In this document: in pieces, positions 3,736-14,223 of the stretch | Numbering within the stretch: the stretch's first letter is position 1 | How the letters are laid out: every line of letters begins with the position of its first letter | Assembly (NCBI GenBank): GCA_021731025.1 | Contig: JAKFYD010000068.1 | Coordinates: 1 to 34,564 of the forward strand | DNA: 34,564 nucleotides | DNA from: Pseudobdellovibrionaceae bacterium | GTDB lineage: Bacteria; Bdellovibrionota; Bdellovibrionia; Bdellovibrionales; Bdellovibrionaceae | Reading direction: 5' to 3' | Program-made: the position numbers and the translations under genes | The notes under the pieces: model-generated | Database searches by the model: none | What the model was told of the DNA's origin: nothing | What the model saw: the letters and a program-made list of their open reading frames with translations, nothing else

Positions 3736-5004
3736 CTATTCCAACAACTCAATCCTCTGCCGTCTCTTCTTAGCCGTCCGAACCGATTGCTCATAAATGT
3801 GTGTATATCGAGCTGTAGTCTCTGCTCGAGAGTGCCCCAACCAATATTTTGCTAAAACAAAATCACGGGTATTGCCAACGAGCTCAGTGCACCTCGTGTG
3901 ACGGCAACAGTGATAGCTTTTCTGTTTGAATTTAGTCTTCTCATAGGCCTTTCTCAGCTCTACCGCCGCCATCGTTGAGGTTAGGTCCTCAAATAAAACG
4001 TAGTCTTTCAAATTCGGACCGTACTTTTTTTGTTTAAACTTAGCTTCTTGAATTTTATATAGTTTCACCAGTGCATTGAATAAGCCCTTATCGATAATTG
4101 GAATCAGTCGGTTGTGCTTCTCGTGAATAGCCTTTTTACTTTTTAGTGGCTTTCGAGGGATTGAACCATTTGAGAGGCGATTTCTGATTTTGTAGGCAGG
4201 TTGGCTTTCTAAAACGACATATCCGCAATAATCGATCCCGTGGTCATTGAGTGCTTTGTTTAGAACCGAATCACCAATTTCACCGGTGAACAAATCGTCC
4301 ATCGAAAGGCCATAGATTTCATTGAACCTCATCCCGGTGTAATAGGCAGCTTGAAAGAAGGTGGCCACCAATGGGTTTGTATCTAGGAGAATTCCATAAA
4401 TGTTGTTGAACTCATCTTTTGAAATCAAAGCGTCAGCCGACCTCATGTTGATTTTGGAGGCCGGGAATCCAGTCATCTTGTAAACGTTGGACTTATCCAT
4501 AAGGTTCCTGGTCTTCAGAAAATCAAGAAATGTATTTAGGGTTTTGATACAGTGGTTCATCGTTGAGTAGGCAATATTTCGTTTTGGACTCGTTACCGTT
4601 TGCGCTTCTTTTTCCAGCCAATCGCGATAGTCCTCAAAGTGAAGAGACCAATTGTTTGGGTTGTTTGATTTTTTAACTTCAAGAAAAAATGGCATCACAT
4701 AATGCTCTAGATAAAACTGGGTGTTCTTCCAAGAGTTAGGTTGAGTCCTTTTGCAACTCTCAATATACCGTTCGGACAGTTCATTAAATTTATAGTACTG
4801 AGTCTTCCATTGAAGTCGGCGTAGAATGCGAGTCTTTGCACTGTCGCGAATCGCCTCATTGGCTCGATCCCACTCTTGGGCTTCTTGCAGATTTTTGAAA
4901 GTTGGGTGTGAGTCTTTCTTTAAACGAACCCGTCTTTCACCATCCCAAAATACAATTGAATAATACACTTCGCCCTGGGTTCTTTTTCTTATTTCAACAG
5001 CCAT
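3736..5004 (-). CDS. Tyrosine recombinase / phage-type integrase
   Basis: The 422-residue protein has an N-terminal AP2-like arm-binding stretch (residues 1-60), a SAM-like core-binding domain (about 75-170, ending SYSTMNHCIKTLNTFLDFLK-like) and a catalytic domain. Visible active-site residues are R226 (YYTGMRFNEI), H365 and R368 (HCCRHT), H391 (WLGHSRAET) and the nucleophile Y400 (TARYTHIYEQ). It should integrate and excise a mobile element. The ATG is preceded by GAGGT. A GTTTCGCA-type palindrome abuts its stop codon and a second recombinase lies 7 kb away (12081), marking this as a mobile region. Confidence 0.95.
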   Translation of the reverse strand: MAVEIRKRTQGEVYYSIVFWDGERRVRLKKDSHPTFKNLQEAQEWDRANEAIRDSAKTRILRRLQWKTQYYKFNELSERYIESCKRTQPNSWKNTQFYLEHYVMPFFLEVKKSNNPNNWSLHFEDYRDWLEKEAQTVTSPKRNIAYSTMNHCIKTLNTFLDFLKTRNLMDKSNVYKMTGFPASKINMRSADALISKDEFNNIYGILLDTNPLVATFFQAAYYTGMRFNEIYGLSMDDLFTGEIGDSVLNKALNDHGIDYCGYVVLESQPAYKIRNRLSNGSIPRKPLKSKKAIHEKHNRLIPIIDKGLFNALVKLYKIQEAKFKQKKYGPNLKDYVLFEDLTSTMAAVELRKAYEKTKFKQKSYHCCRHTRCTELVGNTRDFVLAKYWLGHSRAETTARYTHIYEQSVRTAKKRRQRIELLE

Positions 5005-5006
5005 AA

Positions 5007-5198
5007 GTACCTCACATTCAAATTCAATTTTATCGAGGTTCAGAGCTTTTGTACGCGGTGGAAGTTGAACCCATTGACGGCATCAATTCGGATCAGCCTT
5101 GCATCACAATGATGTGTGTTGCAGTCACCATGGATGACGTGGCTCCCGTGATCAACAGACTCAACTTTTCTGCGTACCTCGACCTACCTACAGCTTAA
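5007..5198 (+). pseudogene. Coding-like gene fragment beside the integrase
   Basis: An open frame runs from just after an in-frame TAA (5004-5006) to a TAA at 5196-5198 without a plausible start codon near its beginning. The product includes ELLYAVEVEPIDGINSDQ and CITMMCVAVTMDDVAPVINR, whose composition and codon use look like real protein. Earliest ATG codons are in the middle of the frame. I read it as the C-terminal remnant of a gene cut by integration or deletion. The family is not recognised. It could also be chance. Confidence 0.4.
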
Positions 5199-5271
5199 AA
5201 TTAGATATGTCGGAAAGTTGGTTACGCTTATCGTAAATCAGAAGAATAAACCTATTTTCAAAGACAAACTT

Positions 5272-5574
5272 ATGGAGATGAAGAAGGAAATTAAATTGTC
5301 ACAGGTTTTACAACGAGAGCTGAAAGGTAAAGTCATATCTCGTGTGGCCAAAGAAGTTGGTATCAGCGTGAGCATTCTTCATGACTGGTATTCTTCTTCA
5401 AGAAAGCCATCGGCTAAAAACATGTGGCATCTTAAAAAGCTAGCCGACCATTTAGGAATGACTTTGGAGCAGATATTATTTGATGAAAAAAGTGAAAAGC
5501 AAACGATCAGCACGACAACCTTCAGCGATCGTGGGGTTCAGTACCGGGTCAACATTGAAAAGATAAAGGGGTAA
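5272..5574 (+). CDS. Small helix-turn-helix (Cro/XRE-like) regulator
   Basis: A short DNA-binding protein with a lambda-repressor-like helix-turn-helix: GKVISRVAKEVGISVSILHDWYSSSRKPSAKN, then HLKKLADHLGMTLEQILF. The start is uncertain: the frame is open from a TTG at 5218, but ATG at 5272 or 5278 places the domain at the usual distance from the N-terminus and no candidate has a good ribosome-binding site. The stop is followed after three bases by the secreted-protein gene at 5578, and the ribosome-binding site of that gene lies in its last codons, so it probably regulates or at least heads the cargo operon 5272-8014. Confidence 0.75.
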   Translation: MEMKKEIKLSQVLQRELKGKVISRVAKEVGISVSILHDWYSSSRKPSAKNMWHLKKLADHLGMTLEQILFDEKSEKQTISTTTFSDRGVQYRVNIEKIKG

Positions 5575-5577
5575 GTT

Positions 5578-6177
5578 ATGAAGGAAATTTTACTTTTAAC
5601 ATTGTTCATTTCTCAACCAGCGTTTTGCTGGATTATAAAAAACCAAGAAGGGAAATGTTCAGATGGCGGCGAGTCTTTTAGTCCGGAAAGCTACCTAAAT
5701 TCCTCTTTGGCTAAGTGTACGAAGGTTTCTGAAGGCAAACTGAAGACCGTTTTGAATTGCAAAGCTCGTGTTGCAGCAATGGACGGGATAACATCTTTCT
5801 ACCAATCCATGGAAGACTGCAAGAAAGATGGCGGCATACATGACAGCAAGAAAAGTCAGATGGTAAAGGAGAAGTGGAAGAAGAATTACGACTCCAAATT
5901 ATGGTCGCTAACAAAGTTGAGTTGCCCAAAGACAGAAACTGACTGTAGCCAAAGTGCGGTAAAGACCAACGAGTTCATTCAGACTATGAAGCCGGTTTAT
6001 GAAGGAAAGGGTTATAACTGCGCCAGTACGTTTGATGTAATATTGAATACGGAAACACCTCCAGATAGCTTTAAGATGTCATTCATTTGCATGAATCCAA
6101 CCGACATATGTACATCCTCGGTCTTTTGGTTTGAAACAGAAAAGGAATGCCGGGAATTTAAGAAAGAGTCGAAGTAA
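5578..6177 (+). CDS. Secreted Cys-rich hypothetical protein
   Basis: The 199-residue product starts with a short signal peptide (MKEILLLTLFISQPAFC, likely cleaved near residue 17) and contains about a dozen cysteines spread along the chain (for example KCSDGG, KCTKVS, LNCKAR, DCKKDGG, LSCPKTETDCSQ, CASTF, FICMNPTDIC, KECREF). That spacing suggests a disulfide-bonded periplasmic or extracellular protein. No family is recognised. It has a good AAGGGG ribosome-binding site, is tightly linked to the upstream HTH gene, and is followed by the outer-membrane protein gene after 39 bases. Confidence 0.75.
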   Translation: MKEILLLTLFISQPAFCWIIKNQEGKCSDGGESFSPESYLNSSLAKCTKVSEGKLKTVLNCKARVAAMDGITSFYQSMEDCKKDGGIHDSKKSQMVKEKWKKNYDSKLWSLTKLSCPKTETDCSQSAVKTNEFIQTMKPVYEGKGYNCASTFDVILNTETPPDSFKMSFICMNPTDICTSSVFWFETEKECREFKKESK

Positions 6178-6216
6178 GATTTTTGGTTGAGAAATAATGA
6201 GTGGAGGAATTTAAGC

Positions 6217-7329
6217 TTGAAAGTAAGGTTATTCACTCTACTTATGTTTATCTTCGCAAGCGCAGCCCACGCTCAATGGTTGTGTCGAGATGCTTCGTCA
6301 ATAAGATCCGGACAAACTATTACAGCCTGCGGAGTAGGCCAGTCCCAGTCATTAGAAGATGCCAGATCTAAATCTAGAGAAAGTGCCATTGAAGAGTTCA
6401 AGCGAATCTGCAATGAGTCAGCTGATTGTTTTGAATTTGACTACACCATCAATCCAAAGCGAACTGACTGCGAAATCAAAAGCAACATTCATACTTGCTA
6501 CCGTGCTTTAGATTTTGAAATTGGCACCAGGAAAAGAAAGTCAATTTCACTTGATACCAATGAGCTTGAGTCTGAGCTCAAGAATCGCAATCAAGAAATT
6601 CAAGCTATCCAAAACCGCATTGAAAAGATAAATCAAATAAAACAGTCAGAGCAAGAAGCTGAGTCAAAAAAGCAAGAGCTTCGGGAACTCGAATCAAGTT
6701 TAAATAAAAAGGAAGCTGAAGCTGTTAAGCTCGAAGACTTAAATTCTAAGGATACCATTGAGTCCGGTGGTTATAGATACCTTCACCAAATCTATAAAAA
6801 TAGCATCAAGGTTTCATTTCATTATTGGGCATCTAAACTCACATCGACATCACAAAACGACATCATGTGGCTGGCGGCCTACGAGAAAAGGCCATACGGC
6901 TGGCTCGGGTTTCAAATTTATGGTGGATTTGGTAGAGGTAATCTGCCCGATCAAAAGACGGATGATTCGGTGCCGACCATGGGTCCATCCAGCTCAACCC
7001 AGAACTACAATGGATCCGTGGCATACTTGGATCTAGGCTTGGGCCTTTTGGTGTATCCTGGGTGGCGTGGGGTCTATTTAAAATCAGATCTGGGCATCAT
7101 CAACGGTCGCAAGGAATCCTACACGGTGAGCTATAACGGCGCAGGTGTTGGTACTCCTCAAAAAAATGAGTCCAAATTCTCAGCAAGTTACGTCGGTGCT
7201 CATATTGGATTTGATACTCGTGATGATAAAAAAGGTTGGGGTGTATATTTCGAGTTGGGTGCTAGAAAAGTAAGTGACCAATCAAATCCAGGATTCATGG
7301 GCGGCCTTGGGGTCAATTATGGATTCTAA
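6217..7329 (+). CDS. Outer-membrane protein: periplasmic coiled coil plus C-terminal beta-barrel
   Basis: I chose the TTG at 6217 because GGAGG lies nine bases upstream and it gives a clean signal peptide (MKVRLFTLLMFIFASAAHA/QW). An in-frame TTG at 6187 would put extra polar residues before it. The mature protein has a Cys-containing N-terminal domain (to about residue 110), a Glu/Lys/Gln-rich coiled coil (about 115-185; LESELKNRNQEIQAIQNRIE), then alternating amphipathic strands (GWLGFQIYGGFGRGN, VAYLDLGLGLLVYPGW, ASYVGAHIGFDTRDD) ending GGLGVNYGF with the terminal Phe typical of beta-barrels. Family not recognised; lipoprotein features are absent. Confidence 0.8.
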   Translation: MKVRLFTLLMFIFASAAHAQWLCRDASSIRSGQTITACGVGQSQSLEDARSKSRESAIEEFKRICNESADCFEFDYTINPKRTDCEIKSNIHTCYRALDFEIGTRKRKSISLDTNELESELKNRNQEIQAIQNRIEKINQIKQSEQEAESKKQELRELESSLNKKEAEAVKLEDLNSKDTIESGGYRYLHQIYKNSIKVSFHYWASKLTSTSQNDIMWLAAYEKRPYGWLGFQIYGGFGRGNLPDQKTDDSVPTMGPSSSTQNYNGSVAYLDLGLGLLVYPGWRGVYLKSDLGIINGRKESYTVSYNGAGVGTPQKNESKFSASYVGAHIGFDTRDDKKGWGVYFELGARKVSDQSNPGFMGGLGVNYGF

Positions 7330-8014
7330 ACCATTTCAATATTTTCTAGTTCATGAGCACAAGCGGATCCTTTTGTTTGAAAGCCAGTTCCAGTTTTTCA
7401 CACAACGGGATTGCTTAAGACACTACGAAAAAGGTATCGCCAAAGGCATATTTGGCTTTGATCGCTCCCGGGTCGGCCAGGTCTGGGCTAGCTTGGCTCT
7501 ATGGGGATTGATTGGTCGAGTGAATCCGGTTGAGGTGGTGAGAGCCCTGTGCGCGTTTGGATGTGAATTGCAACGGAACCACCAAGGCGAAGTCATCGTA
7601 CTTCAAAAGTCATTTTATCCCGTCACGTATTATCTTCCAGTTTCGCAAGGAGAAACTCCTGGCTTGAGACATCATTTTCATAAATCCTTAGTCAAGGGCG
7701 ACGAAGATCACATTCCGCTCTTGTTAGAACTCAAAGACCGACTGGTGTTGGGGCATTATTATTCGACTGAAGAATTGGATGCGGATCAACAGCTTCCGGC
7801 CTTTTGCTCCAAGTTGGAAAACGACCTGTGCTTTGTGACCGGAATATATCAATCAATGTTATCGACGCTATTTTATGAAGGCCTAGAAATTCGAGCTGAG
7901 ACCCATGGAAAGAACATCCTGCTTGCTAGAAACGATTTGAGTAAAAATACTCTGACCGGAATTGAAGGTGAGCAAACCCTATTTTTCGTAGGTCAAGCCA
8001 AGAGAGCAGCATAA
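7319..8014 (+). CDS. Hypothetical protein, coupled to the outer-membrane protein gene
   Basis: The ATG at 7319 overlaps the end of the preceding gene, so the two are translationally coupled; an ATG at 7274 is less likely. The 231-residue product has no signal peptide and no clear membrane segment. It is rich in aromatic residues and His (FQYFLVHEHKRILLFESQFQFF; LRHHFHKSL). The segment GIFGFDRSRVGQVWASLALWGLIGR (about 38-62) may be helical. No family is recognised. It contains copy C of the GTTTCGCA palindrome within its coding sequence (PVSQGETP). It converges with the nuclease gene, with three bases between them. Confidence 0.65.
   Translation: MDSKPFQYFLVHEHKRILLFESQFQFFTQRDCLRHYEKGIAKGIFGFDRSRVGQVWASLALWGLIGRVNPVEVVRALCAFGCELQRNHQGEVIVLQKSFYPVTYYLPVSQGETPGLRHHFHKSLVKGDEDHIPLLLELKDRLVLGHYYSTEELDADQQLPAFCSKLENDLCFVTGIYQSMLSTLFYEGLEIRAETHGKNILLARNDLSKNTLTGIEGEQTLFFVGQAKRAA
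7640..7657 (+). repeat. Dispersed GTTTCGCA imperfect palindrome, copy C
   Basis: GTTTCGCAAGGAGAAACT lies inside the 231-residue hypothetical gene, where it encodes VSQGET. With its preceding CA it differs from copy A at one base in 20. Its presence in coding sequence argues that the match could partly be chance or that the gene has taken up the element. Confidence 0.4.
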
Positions 8015-8017
8015 GAA

Positions 8018-8848
8018 TCATTTAAGTTCTTTCGCCAACTCGCGCTTAACTTTGACTGGACATTTCGAATCCAAGAATAAAGTGTGTGCTTCATCTACCA
8101 AAGCTAGGTTCAAGCCAAACTTTTCAACAACAAAGGTATCGATTTCTTTAAGAGTCATATTACAGGCTATTGTTTTGCACCATAGCGCACGTTTTGTTCG
8201 ATGAATCTGTTTGTCGAGAGCGCCAGATCGTTTGCGAGTCATGGATTTCATCGCTTTATAAAGAAACTGTAAGTCAGTCGATTTTTCATTCGGTATAGAA
8301 ATGGGATATAGTCCAAGGCTTTCAAAATGAGAATACGTGATCATATCTTTTTCCAGTTTGTTGACATGGGAATCACCATCAATCTCAATGACCAATCCAG
8401 AATAACCATTCATTTTTAAGCCGAAGATAACGTAATCGGGTAAATGACATCCAACGACTAACTTTCGGTTCAATTGCTTCGAGTAGTGGTCGGTCGGATA
8501 TATATCAGCATTCTTAAATTCGATATGGGTCTTGGTGAGCTCTTTGAAGGTCTCGAGGAATCTTCTTTCAGCTGGAGTCGATTGAAAACCAGTATGTTCA
8601 AAGCGAGCACTGCACCTATCAAAGTAGAGTTGGCTTGCATGACTGAAAAGGGCGGTGATCATTTCATCAGTGATTAAAGGAAGCGATACGGTCAAGGACT
8701 TCTCTATTTGAGCTCTTCTTAAAACTGTCTTCTTTCTATAGAACTCATTGAGGGTTCGTTGAAGAATAAAGTGGTGACATCCTTTGTTCCATTGTTTGAT
8801 CTTCCTTTTGGTTTCATCCTTTATGTCTTGTTCAAATTGAATATTCAT
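8018..8848 (-). CDS. DUF559/Vsr-like PD-(D/E)XK endonuclease
   Basis: The 276-residue protein carries the DUF559 nuclease pattern in its second half. TPAERRFLETFKEL (E94) corresponds to the family's N-terminal Glu helix. LPDYVIFG gives D138, GLVIEIDGDSH gives E155 and D157 with H161, and KDMITYSHFESLGLYPISI is the usual end of the domain. This fold is related to Vsr and other PD-(D/E)XK nucleases that cut DNA. The N-terminal 85 residues are basic and unrecognised, and about 90 residues follow the domain. It is on the same strand as the C5 methyltransferase but separated by a terminator-like hairpin, so it has its own promoter. It is the candidate restriction or mismatch-repair nuclease of this module. 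Confidence 0.75.
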   Translation of the reverse strand: MNIQFEQDIKDETKRKIKQWNKGCHHFILQRTLNEFYRKKTVLRRAQIEKSLTVSLPLITDEMITALFSHASQLYFDRCSARFEHTGFQSTPAERRFLETFKELTKTHIEFKNADIYPTDHYSKQLNRKLVVGCHLPDYVIFGLKMNGYSGLVIEIDGDSHVNKLEKDMITYSHFESLGLYPISIPNEKSTDLQFLYKAMKSMTRKRSGALDKQIHRTKRALWCKTIACNMTLKEIDTFVVEKFGLNLALVDEAHTLFLDSKCPVKVKRELAKELK

Positions 8849-9846: not shown

Positions 9847-10938
9847 TTATTTTCCCTCCGTTAAAATAGTTAAAAGACTTCTCGCTAAAACTTCTGCAAA
9901 CATAGGCGGTACTGCATTTGCTATTTGATGATATTTTTCCTCCATATTCTTTCCCAAGAACTCAAAGTCATATGGGAATGTTTGAATTGTTGCGGCCTCT
10001 CGAACAGAAATTGCTCGATCAAGCCAAGGGTGCCAATGAACGTTTGTGCCTCCATTAAAACTCATCGTTGGCGCAATTTTCGCTGGATTTAGACGCTGAA
10101 CATCCTGCCCTCGCTGTGGAATTCTAATTTTTCCATTTTCACGAGGGATTTTTGGATCATTCATAAGTCCTTTTTCAGCAAGGCGTTTATGCAACTCAAC
10201 TTCACTGAGCTTTTTCAGCGTCTCGAGATTTTCTCCGGGCGCTAAGATTGGCCCAAATATTTTCTGGGTTACATTTGGTGTGATTGATTCACTTCCAGTT
10301 AAATTTCCTGGAATACTCTTAAAAAGCTCATCCACCGTCTGTGCTTGAGCAAATATTTTCTTCGGAAACAGCCTTTTGAGAACAGTTGGATCACCGATCT
10401 TTTTTCCAAAGAATATTACTCGCTTTCGTCGCTGGGGAATTCCAAACTCAGACAGATCAAAAAGTCGATACTCAACTTCATATCCAACTTCTTTGATAGC
10501 ATTTAGCAGAATAGGAAGTGGGTTATCTGGTTGATCTGGTTTGTTGGGATCTTTTTCATCTTTGAAAGTTAATATACCTTGTACGTTTTCAAGAATGAAA
10601 AATCTTGGCTGAATTTTTTGAAGATTCTGAATTGTCTTTAGAAACAACCGACCATTTTCAGATTGCAGAGCGGTGCGAGGACCTGCCGTACTGTAACTCT
10701 GACATGGGGGCCCCCCAATCAATATGTCTGGATGCTTAGGAATTTCATCCCAGAAATGATTTACATCACCTTCTTTTAAATATGAAATATCATGCAGTTT
10801 TCCAAAATTGAGACGGTAAGTTTCGCATGCGCTACTTTCCAGTTCGCTTGCGAACACAATGTCAAAGCCAGCTCGAACAAAACCAAGGTCTAGGCCGCCA
10901 GCACCGGTGAAAAGTGATACTACTTTAAATTTCCTCAT
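9847..10938 (-). CDS. DNA (cytosine-5) methyltransferase
   Basis: The 363-residue protein has the ordered C5-MTase motifs: motif I FTGAGGLDLGF (10-20), motif IV GGPPCQSYS with catalytic C79, motif VI ENV (117-119), motif VIII QRRKRV (169-174), the target-recognition region (about 185-300), motif IX SVREAATIQTFP (311-322) and motif X QIANAVPP (338-345). It transfers a methyl group from SAM to C5 of cytosine in a target site that cannot be read from the sequence. AAGGGGG precedes the ATG. The divergent HTH gene at 11239 and the separate nuclease gene suggest a restriction-modification or solitary-methylase unit. Confidence 0.95.
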   Translation of the reverse strand: MRKFKVVSLFTGAGGLDLGFVRAGFDIVFASELESSACETYRLNFGKLHDISYLKEGDVNHFWDEIPKHPDILIGGPPCQSYSTAGPRTALQSENGRLFLKTIQNLQKIQPRFFILENVQGILTFKDEKDPNKPDQPDNPLPILLNAIKEVGYEVEYRLFDLSEFGIPQRRKRVIFFGKKIGDPTVLKRLFPKKIFAQAQTVDELFKSIPGNLTGSESITPNVTQKIFGPILAPGENLETLKKLSEVELHKRLAEKGLMNDPKIPRENGKIRIPQRGQDVQRLNPAKIAPTMSFNGGTNVHWHPWLDRAISVREAATIQTFPYDFEFLGKNMEEKYHQIANAVPPMFAEVLARSLLTILTEGK

Positions 10939-11238: not shown

Positions 11239-11595
11239 ATGAGCAGCAAAGCAAAACGATTTGAGGGCAAAACTGATGAGGATAAAAAGAAGAACGTGAT
11301 TGAGTTTCTTGAGTCGGTGAGTTCCAAATTGGGAATCAAAAGAGACGACCTAGCGGTGAAGCTAGGTATAAGTCACTCAGCATTTTACGGCTGGATATAT
11401 AGGAGAGAAATTCCTGGCAAAGCTTATGAAAAGCTTTTGATGATGTTGGATGGTACTTACAAAGACGAGCCCATTTCTGTTGGTGCCGAAATAAAAAGCT
11501 TAGCTAAGCAAGATTTGTCTCAAGTGTCTCTTGATGATCTTGTCGCTGAGATTGAAAAAAGAAACTGGGTTGTTAAGATCGAAAGAAAGGCTTGA
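11239..11595 (+). CDS. Helix-turn-helix regulator divergent from the methyltransferase (possible controller)
   Basis: The ATG at 11239 is preceded by AAAGGGGG, which sets the start; the frame is open 24 bases further up but lacks a ribosome-binding site. The 118-residue product has a lambda-repressor-like helix-turn-helix at about residues 36-66 (GIKRDDLAVKLGISHSAFYG, WIYRREIPGKAYEKL), followed by an acidic linker and a C-terminal helix (DLVAEIEKRNWVVKIE). Its position opposite the methyltransferase with repeated TAGTAAT sequences between them resembles controller proteins of restriction-modification systems, which is inference. Confidence 0.75.
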   Translation: MSSKAKRFEGKTDEDKKKNVIEFLESVSSKLGIKRDDLAVKLGISHSAFYGWIYRREIPGKAYEKLLMMLDGTYKDEPISVGAEIKSLAKQDLSQVSLDDLVAEIEKRNWVVKIERKA

Positions 11596-12080: not shown

Positions 12081-12692
12081 TTAAAACAAATCCTTCACTT
12101 TGTCCCTATTAGCTTGGGTCAGGTGAAGGTACTGACTGGTAATTGAAATATTAGAATGCCTCAAGTTGTCCCGAACAAAAGTAAGAGACAAGCCCCTGTC
12201 TAAACACAAAGTACCATAGGTGTGCCTAAGTGAATGTATCGAAAGCGTAGCTGGAAGTTCAGTCTGCTTGATCCAAAACTTGAATCTTGAGTGCATGTAA
12301 CATCTGGTGGCCACTCGGTCATTAACGCTAAAAAGATAGTCAGTGGATGTCTTCATCAAGATTGGTTTGGTCGTTTTTAATTCGTCCAGTAGAGCACGTG
12401 ATTTTTTACCAAAATAAACGGAACCTTTTTTACCATTCTTGCTGATTTCAGCTCTGACAATAAGAAAATCTTCGTGTATATCATCCCAGGTCAATTTTAA
12501 CGCTTCAGAAATTCTAAGCCCAGTATTTGCGATCAACGTGAATAAAAAATAGTCCATGGCAACTCTGGTCTCTTTTGGAAGTGGTTTAGATGAGGCTTGA
12601 ATCGCCAACAATGATTTTGCTTTTTCATTTTGGAGTCTTTTGAGAAACCGACTCAACTGGACTTCCGAAAGCACTTTATCCGCATTAATCAT
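12081..12692 (-). CDS. Short tyrosine recombinase lacking a full N-terminal domain
   Basis: The 203-residue protein is nearly all catalytic domain: R60 (NTGLRISEALKLTWDD), K87-region beta-hairpin (EISKNGKKGSVYF), H153 and R156 (IHSLRHTYGT), H179 (NLRHSNISIT) and nucleophile Y188 (SQYLHLT). Only about 45 residues precede it, far less than the usual core-binding domain, so it is either a genuinely small recombinase or a truncated one that regained a start. CGGAGGG precedes the ATG, so translation as annotated is credible. It sits inside the island opened by the larger integrase. Confidence 0.88.
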   Translation of the reverse strand: MINADKVLSEVQLSRFLKRLQNEKAKSLLAIQASSKPLPKETRVAMDYFLFTLIANTGLRISEALKLTWDDIHEDFLIVRAEISKNGKKGSVYFGKKSRALLDELKTTKPILMKTSTDYLFSVNDRVATRCYMHSRFKFWIKQTELPATLSIHSLRHTYGTLCLDRGLSLTFVRDNLRHSNISITSQYLHLTQANRDKVKDLF

Positions 12693-12868: not shown

Positions 12869-13405
12869 TTAACTGGAACTGTTTGAATTCGATGCAAGTG
12901 TTGAAAGGTCAACCAGGTTTAGACCCCAATTGGTCAGCGCAATAAGATCCTTCGAATGGAAAAGTCTGATTTGAGCTCTTCCTAGCCATATTGTTGCGAA
13001 GTCGATAAATCCAGTTTTGTCTCCGGTGTGAATTAAGCCGTGTTCAATCGTTTTCCCTGGAACTAGAAAATTTACGTTTAGGAAAAACGAATTCTTAGAT
13101 TTCACCTTAAAAGTCACAAGAACTGGTTTTAGATTTGTCAGATCAATCCCTACTAAGCTTTCGACTCTAGAAGATTCAGGCAACGCCCAAAGAAAGCGAG
13201 TGTTGTGCTCATTCAGAGGAAGAATGGGCTCATCGATACTATTCGGTTGCTGGTAGGCTTGCCGTCTTCTAAAATTTCGACATTCTTTGCAGCAAGGATT
13301 GTATCCATCTGGGGAAAGCATGCGAACCCCAAAGAAGTTCAAAGGCAACTGACGCTTGCAAGAAAAGCACAACTTAACTTTTTGATTTTGTGATTCGGTA
13401 CTCAC
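12869..13405 (-). CDS. Zinc-ribbon hypothetical protein
   Basis: The 178-residue product has a four-Cys zinc ribbon at residues 13-46: CFSCKRQLPLNFFG, then YNPCCKECRNFRRRQAY. This resembles the N-terminal CxxC-CxxC knuckle of HNH/endonuclease VII-like proteins, but no HNH catalytic triad is visible after it, and the remaining 130 residues (FLWALPESSRVESLVGIDL, LIHTGDKTGFIDFATIWLG) are unrecognised. The start is GTG with no clear ribosome-binding site, so its exact N-terminus is uncertain. It is the last gene before copy D of the GTTTCGCA palindrome. Confidence 0.6.
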   Translation of the reverse strand: MSTESQNQKVKLCFSCKRQLPLNFFGVRMLSPDGYNPCCKECRNFRRRQAYQQPNSIDEPILPLNEHNTRFLWALPESSRVESLVGIDLTNLKPVLVTFKVKSKNSFFLNVNFLVPGKTIEHGLIHTGDKTGFIDFATIWLGRAQIRLFHSKDLIALTNWGLNLVDLSTLASNSNSSS

Positions 13406-13839: not shown

Positions 13840-14223
13840 ATGGAGTTTCGATTTCTATCTTTAGACGATGTTTTAGAGCTGCACGAAATGCAGCTTGAAA
13901 GTTATGGCGGTGCGACTGGTATTCGTGATCGTGGACTTCTTGAATCCGCGGTCATGATGCCCCAAGCTTCATTCGGTGGTGAATTTGTTCACAAAGGTGT
14001 ATTTGAAATGGCTGCGGCCTACGCATTTCATATTGCAGAAAATCAGCCCTTTGTGGATGGAAATAAAAGAACTGCACTTGCTTCGGCCCTCGTATTTTTA
14101 GACTGGCACGACATTGAGATCAATGATCCCCAAGAAGAACTCTACAGCGCGATGATTGGTTTAGCTCAGAAGACTTTAGACAAAGCAGGGCTTGCTACCC
14201 TATTTCAGAAGCTATCGAAGTAA
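13840..14223 (+). CDS. doc: Doc (death-on-curing)/Fic-family toxin
   Basis: The 127-residue protein has the Doc fold signature: LELHEMQLESYGGATGIRDRGLLESAV near the start and HIAENQPFVDGNKRTALAS (residues 64-82), the Fic loop. Doc proteins phosphorylate EF-Tu and stop translation. Canonical loops read HxFxxGNKR-like with a catalytic His; here the matching residue is Gln69 (NQPFVDGNKR). Such Q variants may be inactive, altered or normal for the subgroup; this cannot be decided here. The Phe, Asp, Asn and Arg of the loop are kept. No separate ribosome-binding site is seen, consistent with coupling to the antitoxin. Confidence 0.88.
   Translation: MEFRFLSLDDVLELHEMQLESYGGATGIRDRGLLESAVMMPQASFGGEFVHKGVFEMAAAYAFHIAENQPFVDGNKRTALASALVFLDWHDIEINDPQEELYSAMIGLAQKTLDKAGLATLFQKLSK

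Follow-up and report, generated by a model that had tools for sequence, protein, structure and literature searches.

The window, that is the whole stretch of DNA that was analysed (34,564 nucleotides), corresponds to an entire 34.6-kb contig of a 3.49-Mb genome. A first-pass annotation had described, as island cargo beside an integrase, four genes encoding an HTH regulator, a secreted protein with about a dozen Cys, an outer-membrane protein (OMP) with a coiled coil and a barrel ending in Phe, and a protein of unknown family. The open reading frames and their junctions confirmed four tightly packed genes at 5278-8014 adjoining a tyrosine integrase. The features of the locus are the following.

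3736..5004, minus strand: INT1, a 422-aa tyrosine integrase, divergent from the cargo operon (Pfam Phage_integrase 3e-11)
5174..5243, plus strand: conserved non-coding block, probable promoter/operator (alignments of four and six elements)
5208..5216, plus strand: operator-like repeat 1, TGTCGGAAA, of a 21-bp-spaced direct repeat common to six elements
5229..5237, plus strand: operator-like repeat 2, TATCGTAAA, of the same direct repeat
5278..5574, plus strand: gene 1, 98-aa XRE/HTH repressor-like protein (Pfam HTH_26 2.9e-5; family alignment)
5578..6177, plus strand: gene 2, exported Cys-rich protein of 199 aa with 11 Cys, in a swappable slot; its N-terminal ~85 aa are common to G065 proteins
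6217..7329, plus strand: gene 3, OMP of 370 aa with a signal peptide, an alpha/beta domain, a predicted coiled coil (114-174) and a predicted 8-strand barrel (195-369) (AlphaFold, Foldseek, VIA-align, homologues)
7319..8014, plus strand: gene 4, 231-aa cytoplasmic protein, whose start overlaps the OMP stop by 11 nt
8018..8848, minus strand: 276-aa protein, possibly nuclease-like (weak DUF559, 0.04 only; homologue after the OMP in G080)
9847..10938, minus strand: C5 DNA methyltransferase (Pfam 1.4e-63; PADLOC MTase_II 1.3e-77)
11239..11595, plus strand: second HTH protein, CI-repressor-like (Phage_CI_repr 3.7e-5; homologue in the G080 element)
12081..12692, minus strand: INT2, a second tyrosine recombinase of 203 aa (Pfam 2.2e-23; ~65% identical in the G065, G080 and G137 elements)
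12869..13405, minus strand: zinc-ribbon-like protein paired with INT2 (homologues beside INT2 in G065, G080 and G137)

The HTH gene ends at 5574, only 3 nt before the start of the Cys-rich gene at 5578; the latter ends at 6177 and is separated by 39 nt from the TTG start of the OMP gene at 6217, with a GGAGG about 10 nt upstream of this TTG. The 231-aa gene starts at ATG 7319, so that it overlaps the end of the OMP gene (stop at 7329) by 11 nt. ATG 5278 is the more likely start of the HTH gene, rather than 5272, because the homologues from G080 and G137 begin there and because the TTG extension overlaps the conserved non-coding block lying just upstream. The regulator, the integrase and the Cys-rich protein (11 Cys, one of them inside the signal peptide) were thus as previously described, and an AlphaFold model agrees with the proposed architecture of the OMP.

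A profile search for relatives of the HTH protein yielded 26 copies, spread over 23 of 369 Bdellovibrionota genomes; 16 of the copies have a tyrosine or serine recombinase within 500 nt. The family alignment displays a conserved C-terminal tail, YR[VI]xIEK. The nearest phage repressor family is RstR, whose members are likewise small HTH repressor-like proteins; the best NCBIfam subfamily match (8.6e-6) scores 26 bits, below the cutoff of 80, and the window protein differs from RstR by its distinct tail. INT1 has homologues of 86% (G065:C34) and 66% (G080) identity adjoining the same HTH gene, and its tyrosine-recombinase residues R226, H365, R368, H391 and Y400 are invariant in five homologues. 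As a side observation, the window's own genome contains a second INT1-type integrase with an adjoining divergent C5 DNA methyltransferase (L145, G000:C17, 2850-5495).

In six elements the HTH gene is preceded by a conserved block of about 70 nt, which contains two 9-bp direct repeats exactly 21 bp apart. When all lags from 8 to 44 were compared, the matches summed to 47 at lag 21 and to no more than 37 at any other lag, and 300 shuffles never reached 47; since the six sequences are related to one another, this is not a formal probability. In G137, ATAGGAA replaces TCGGAA in both repeats, a paired change which would be expected of a repressor operator. The repeats therefore look like a candidate operator, to which the HTH protein probably binds.

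The gene behind the repressor is the variable part of the module. We counted same-strand genes starting no more than 30 nt 3' of an HTH gene, with the other tightly spaced pairs of the same loci as background. An exported protein is encoded at this place in 18 of 22 cases, compared with 23 of the 126 other tight pairs (18%; Fisher p = 1.1e-8), export being called by a simple rule rather than by SignalP and some of the loci being related. The 18 exported proteins, many of which are predicted lipoproteins, fall into 13 groups without detectable mutual similarity, and gene 2 therefore occupies a swappable slot. One lipoprotein family is found behind the HTH gene both in G080, an INT1 element, and in G018, a serine-recombinase element, so that the pairing of HTH gene and exported protein is not tied to one recombinase. 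In three related genomes (G261-G263) the slot protein is cytoplasmic and there is no recombinase nearby. In G261 (L147, G261:C152, 804-2376), pieces of an INT1-type integrase enclose a tandem of three small exported proteins that contain Cys.

The Cys-rich protein of the window matches G065 and (truncated) G060 proteins over its first ~85 residues and is divergent beyond them. It carries a type I-like signal without lipobox, a lipobox being present in several other slot proteins. No family match was obtained for it in Pfam, PHROGs, NCBIfam and PADLOC scans. An internal repeat, suspected by eye, was rejected since it scored no better than shuffles.

For the OMP, an AlphaFold run with four sequences (mean pLDDT 76) predicted an N-terminal beta-beta-alpha-beta-beta domain, a 61-residue helix (114-174) and a C-terminal 8-strand barrel (195-369) ending in Phe. 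The predicted barrel matches OprF, OmpW, OmpA and OmpX structures at Z 11-17 (Foldseek, VIA-align), with Z 15.7 for the OmpA transmembrane domain; the four family scans gave only coiled-coil noise. All six Cys of the protein lie in the N-domain and are invariant across four homologues. Whole-length homologues are 66% (G065), 62% (G080) and 35% (G137) identical, and more distant full-length relatives are encoded beside INT1-type integrases in G147 and G195. Many further exported proteins of the phylum contain the N-domain, some with the same domain-coil-barrel layout; it is therefore most likely, on these comparisons, that the element took up a host envelope family. This Cys-containing domain, which belongs to a family not in Pfam, is also seen fused to HEAT-like repeats or to other barrels in exported proteins across the phylum (L026, L027, L028, L080-L082). 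An LPP20/FlgT-like identity of the domain was considered and dropped: it relied on topology and one weak viral LPP20 match, and Pfam did not support it.

The 231-aa gene was found in only three genomes, always directly behind the OMP with the same 11-nt overlap. Its product has no signal peptide and matched no family in the Pfam, PHROGs, NCBIfam and PADLOC scans; its model, a weak one (pLDDT 62), had no structural match. Sequence-profile searches of the PDB with genes 3 and 4 returned only coiled coils and ankyrin-like chance matches around an LLAHG stretch. A possible relative, with weak support, lies on the opposite strand in G080 (L032, 6107-6682).

The first-pass annotation had proposed searching for the same gene order next to integrases in other genomes. 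We observed the order HTH gene, slot gene, OMP gene in five elements, as follows.

Window: INT1 (divergent), HTH, Cys-rich protein, OMP, 231-aa protein
G065:C19: HTH, Cys-rich relative, OMP, truncated 231-aa protein
G080: HTH, 261-aa lipoprotein, OMP
G137: HTH, 217-aa secreted protein, OMP, 201-aa relative of gene 4
G147: INT1, HTH, transposase-like fragment, 159-aa protein with a signal-like N-terminus, OMP

The order is more than chance, as it recurs in other genomes, and the co-occurrence that the annotation asked for holds for the HTH, exported-protein and OMP genes; it does not hold for the full set, since gene 2 is exchanged and gene 4 does not follow the OMP in G080. The order HTH gene, slot gene, OMP gene is real and old. 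The G147 OMP may be damaged, since no ordinary start codon is present where one would be expected, and truncated copies occur in G060 and G065. The window, G065:C19, G080 and G137 elements all contain a zinc-ribbon-like protein and another tyrosine recombinase. In elements with a repressor-exported pair, a large serine recombinase likewise has a zinc-ribbon protein (100-119 aa) as its neighbour (L096, L097, L098), which parallels the pairing with INT2 in the window.

Defence genes accompany some of these modules. A C5 methyltransferase-like ORF is recognised by sequence on the G080 contig, and in G137 a CBASS set (SMODS nucleotidyltransferase/synthase, AAA ATPase and SAVED protein) lies just 5' of the module (L024, G137:C53, 3032-6675). 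Behind the G137 module, a helicase-like ORF (weak ResIII match) and a polymerase-like ORF (L024, 10638-13789) are perhaps the replication module of the element; in the window, a Fic/Doc-like ORF (13840-14223) lies just past the zinc-ribbon gene, within the element or beyond it. In G220, a terminase large subunit, an integrase and a serine recombinase stand beside the repressor-exported pair (L103, G220:C86, 8468-12593), and no capsid or tail gene was recognised nearby by eye. Among the part of the window ORFs scanned with PHROGs, no head or tail gene was recognised near the module. The OMP matched nothing in phage and plasmid searches, and neither did the OMP, the repressor or the 231-aa protein in viral contigs. 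We looked for direct repeats that could serve as att sites, and for an empty site, and found neither.

Since the integrase and the repressor flank the candidate operator and the exported genes follow the repressor in the same direction, the four genes are best read as a regulatory-plus-cargo operon, the lysogeny/maintenance module of a family of integrative elements whose moron cargo is exported. This family appears to be restricted to Bdellovibrionota as far as searched. According to this reading, the small XRE protein would bind the two 9-bp repeats just 5' of its own gene, in the gap between the HTH gene and the divergent integrase, and would thereby control its own amount, and probably the amount of integrase as well, while the element is quiescent. 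The same gene string carries the exported protein in its swappable slot; one branch of elements adds the OMP, whose alpha/beta domain would stand in the periplasm, borne by the coiled coil beneath the 8-strand barrel, and a sub-branch adds the translationally coupled cytoplasmic protein. Made, on this reading, during residence of the element and located at the envelope, these proteins most likely act as morons changing or guarding the host surface. Exclusion at the envelope of superinfecting phages or competing elements would then complement intracellular defence cargo such as the C5 methyltransferase here and CBASS in G137. The organisation is observed; for the function, which we infer, such exclusion is the leading candidate, and we give it an even chance. 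In favour of this explanation we counted the spread of the HTH family, the nearby recombinases, the resemblance of the HTH protein to RstR (though below the cutoff), the export bias, the order in five elements, the operator repeats, the defence cargo, the G220 terminase and the analogy with ltp (see below). Against it we counted the simple rule by which export was called, the cytoplasmic slot without recombinase in G261-G263, the lack of head or tail genes near the module and of phage, plasmid or viral-contig matches, and the 231-aa protein, which this reading leaves unexplained.

The second-ranked explanation is that the exported proteins help a predator, by prey attachment, prey-envelope modification, self-protection or stress resistance, without taking part in the exclusion of phages or elements. 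The hosts do come from a lineage of predators, and the wide distribution of the OMP N-domain in exported proteins outside islands, including some with the same domain-coil-barrel layout, implies that the family has host functions. However, the exported genes are linked to a repressor and to recombinases, not to host pathways, and they are swapped among elements; we consider this explanation rather unlikely. Another view would make the slot proteins toxins or effectors acting on prey or rivals, their release being controlled by the repressor. Their polymorphism, and the Cys-rich family that keeps its N-terminal ~85 residues while the remainder changes, are consistent with such a cassette, but no toxin domain or immunity gene was recognised, and many slot proteins are predicted lipoproteins rather than freely secreted, which makes it improbable.

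It is still less probable that the cargo is carried by chance, with no selected joint function. The highly variable slot content and the truncated G060 and G065 copies would fit neutral passengers, whereas the excess of exported proteins over background, the tight junctions and an OMP kept across families at 35-66% identity argue against them. The first-pass annotation had suggested that the genes could form an envelope-spanning system; of the examples it gave, superinfection exclusion and surface remodelling are still leading candidates. A fixed machine built from the four products, e.g. for secretion or contact-dependent function, could be suggested by the tight junctions, by an OMP with a periplasmic coiled coil and by the constant 11-nt overlap of the OMP and 231-aa genes in three genomes. 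An 8-strand barrel of the OmpA/OmpX class, as modelled here, is too narrow for a protein channel, and there is no inner-membrane component or energiser. Moreover, gene 2 is interchangeable with unrelated proteins, the product of gene 4 is cytoplasmic, and gene 4 itself is often missing (in at least one element, G080, it does not follow the OMP); a four-part machine is therefore disfavoured, is not supported by our results and has, in our opinion, hardly any probability.

The same repressor standing before many unrelated exported proteins suggests that these elements have in common a slot for surface proteins by which the host envelope is altered or protected. Used as a marker gene, it leads to at least 13 unrelated, uncharacterised exported families, in which proteins for exclusion or surface conversion may be sought, and the regulation can be tested directly on the predicted operator. 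The action of mobile elements at the surface of predatory bacteria is apparently little described, and no published description of the module was found in the open-licence literature. We tentatively propose, with less confidence than the exclusion function itself, that this Bdellovibrionota cassette, with its tail-bearing repressor family and interchangeable exported-protein slot, represents a new phylum-specific class of envelope-level exclusion systems, the OMP/231-aa pair being one elaborated branch.

Among known systems, the predicted 8-strand barrel (Z 11-17) likens the OMP to the OmpA/OmpX/OmpW class, to which it adds an N-terminal alpha/beta domain and a coiled coil before the barrel, and whose families gave it no Pfam match. 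In the OmpA family the 8-strand barrel is N-terminal and is followed by a C-terminal peptidoglycan-binding OmpA domain, whereas the window OMP ends with its barrel and has no Pfam OmpA match. Lom, of the Ail/Lom family, is a prophage-encoded OMP; the Ail/Lom (OmpX) model gave no Pfam match to the window OMP at E up to 1, the similarity being one of fold only. With integrative elements and phage satellites carrying defence cargo, the window family shares recombinases, a repressor and restriction-modification or CBASS cargo, but here an envelope-protein operon stands behind its own repressor. The nearest experimentally characterised analogue that we found is ltp of phage TP-J34, which encodes an exported superinfection-exclusion lipoprotein within the lysogeny module (PMC3952083). 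Ltp is made in the resident state from a gene placed in an integrase and repressor module, and the same placement is found here in the order INT1, HTH gene, exported-protein gene. Unlike Ltp, which is lipid-anchored, gene 2 has an ordinary signal peptide and no lipobox; in addition, TP-J34 is a Gram-positive phage whereas the slot protein of the window is followed by an OMP, and the two are likened by layout, not by sequence.
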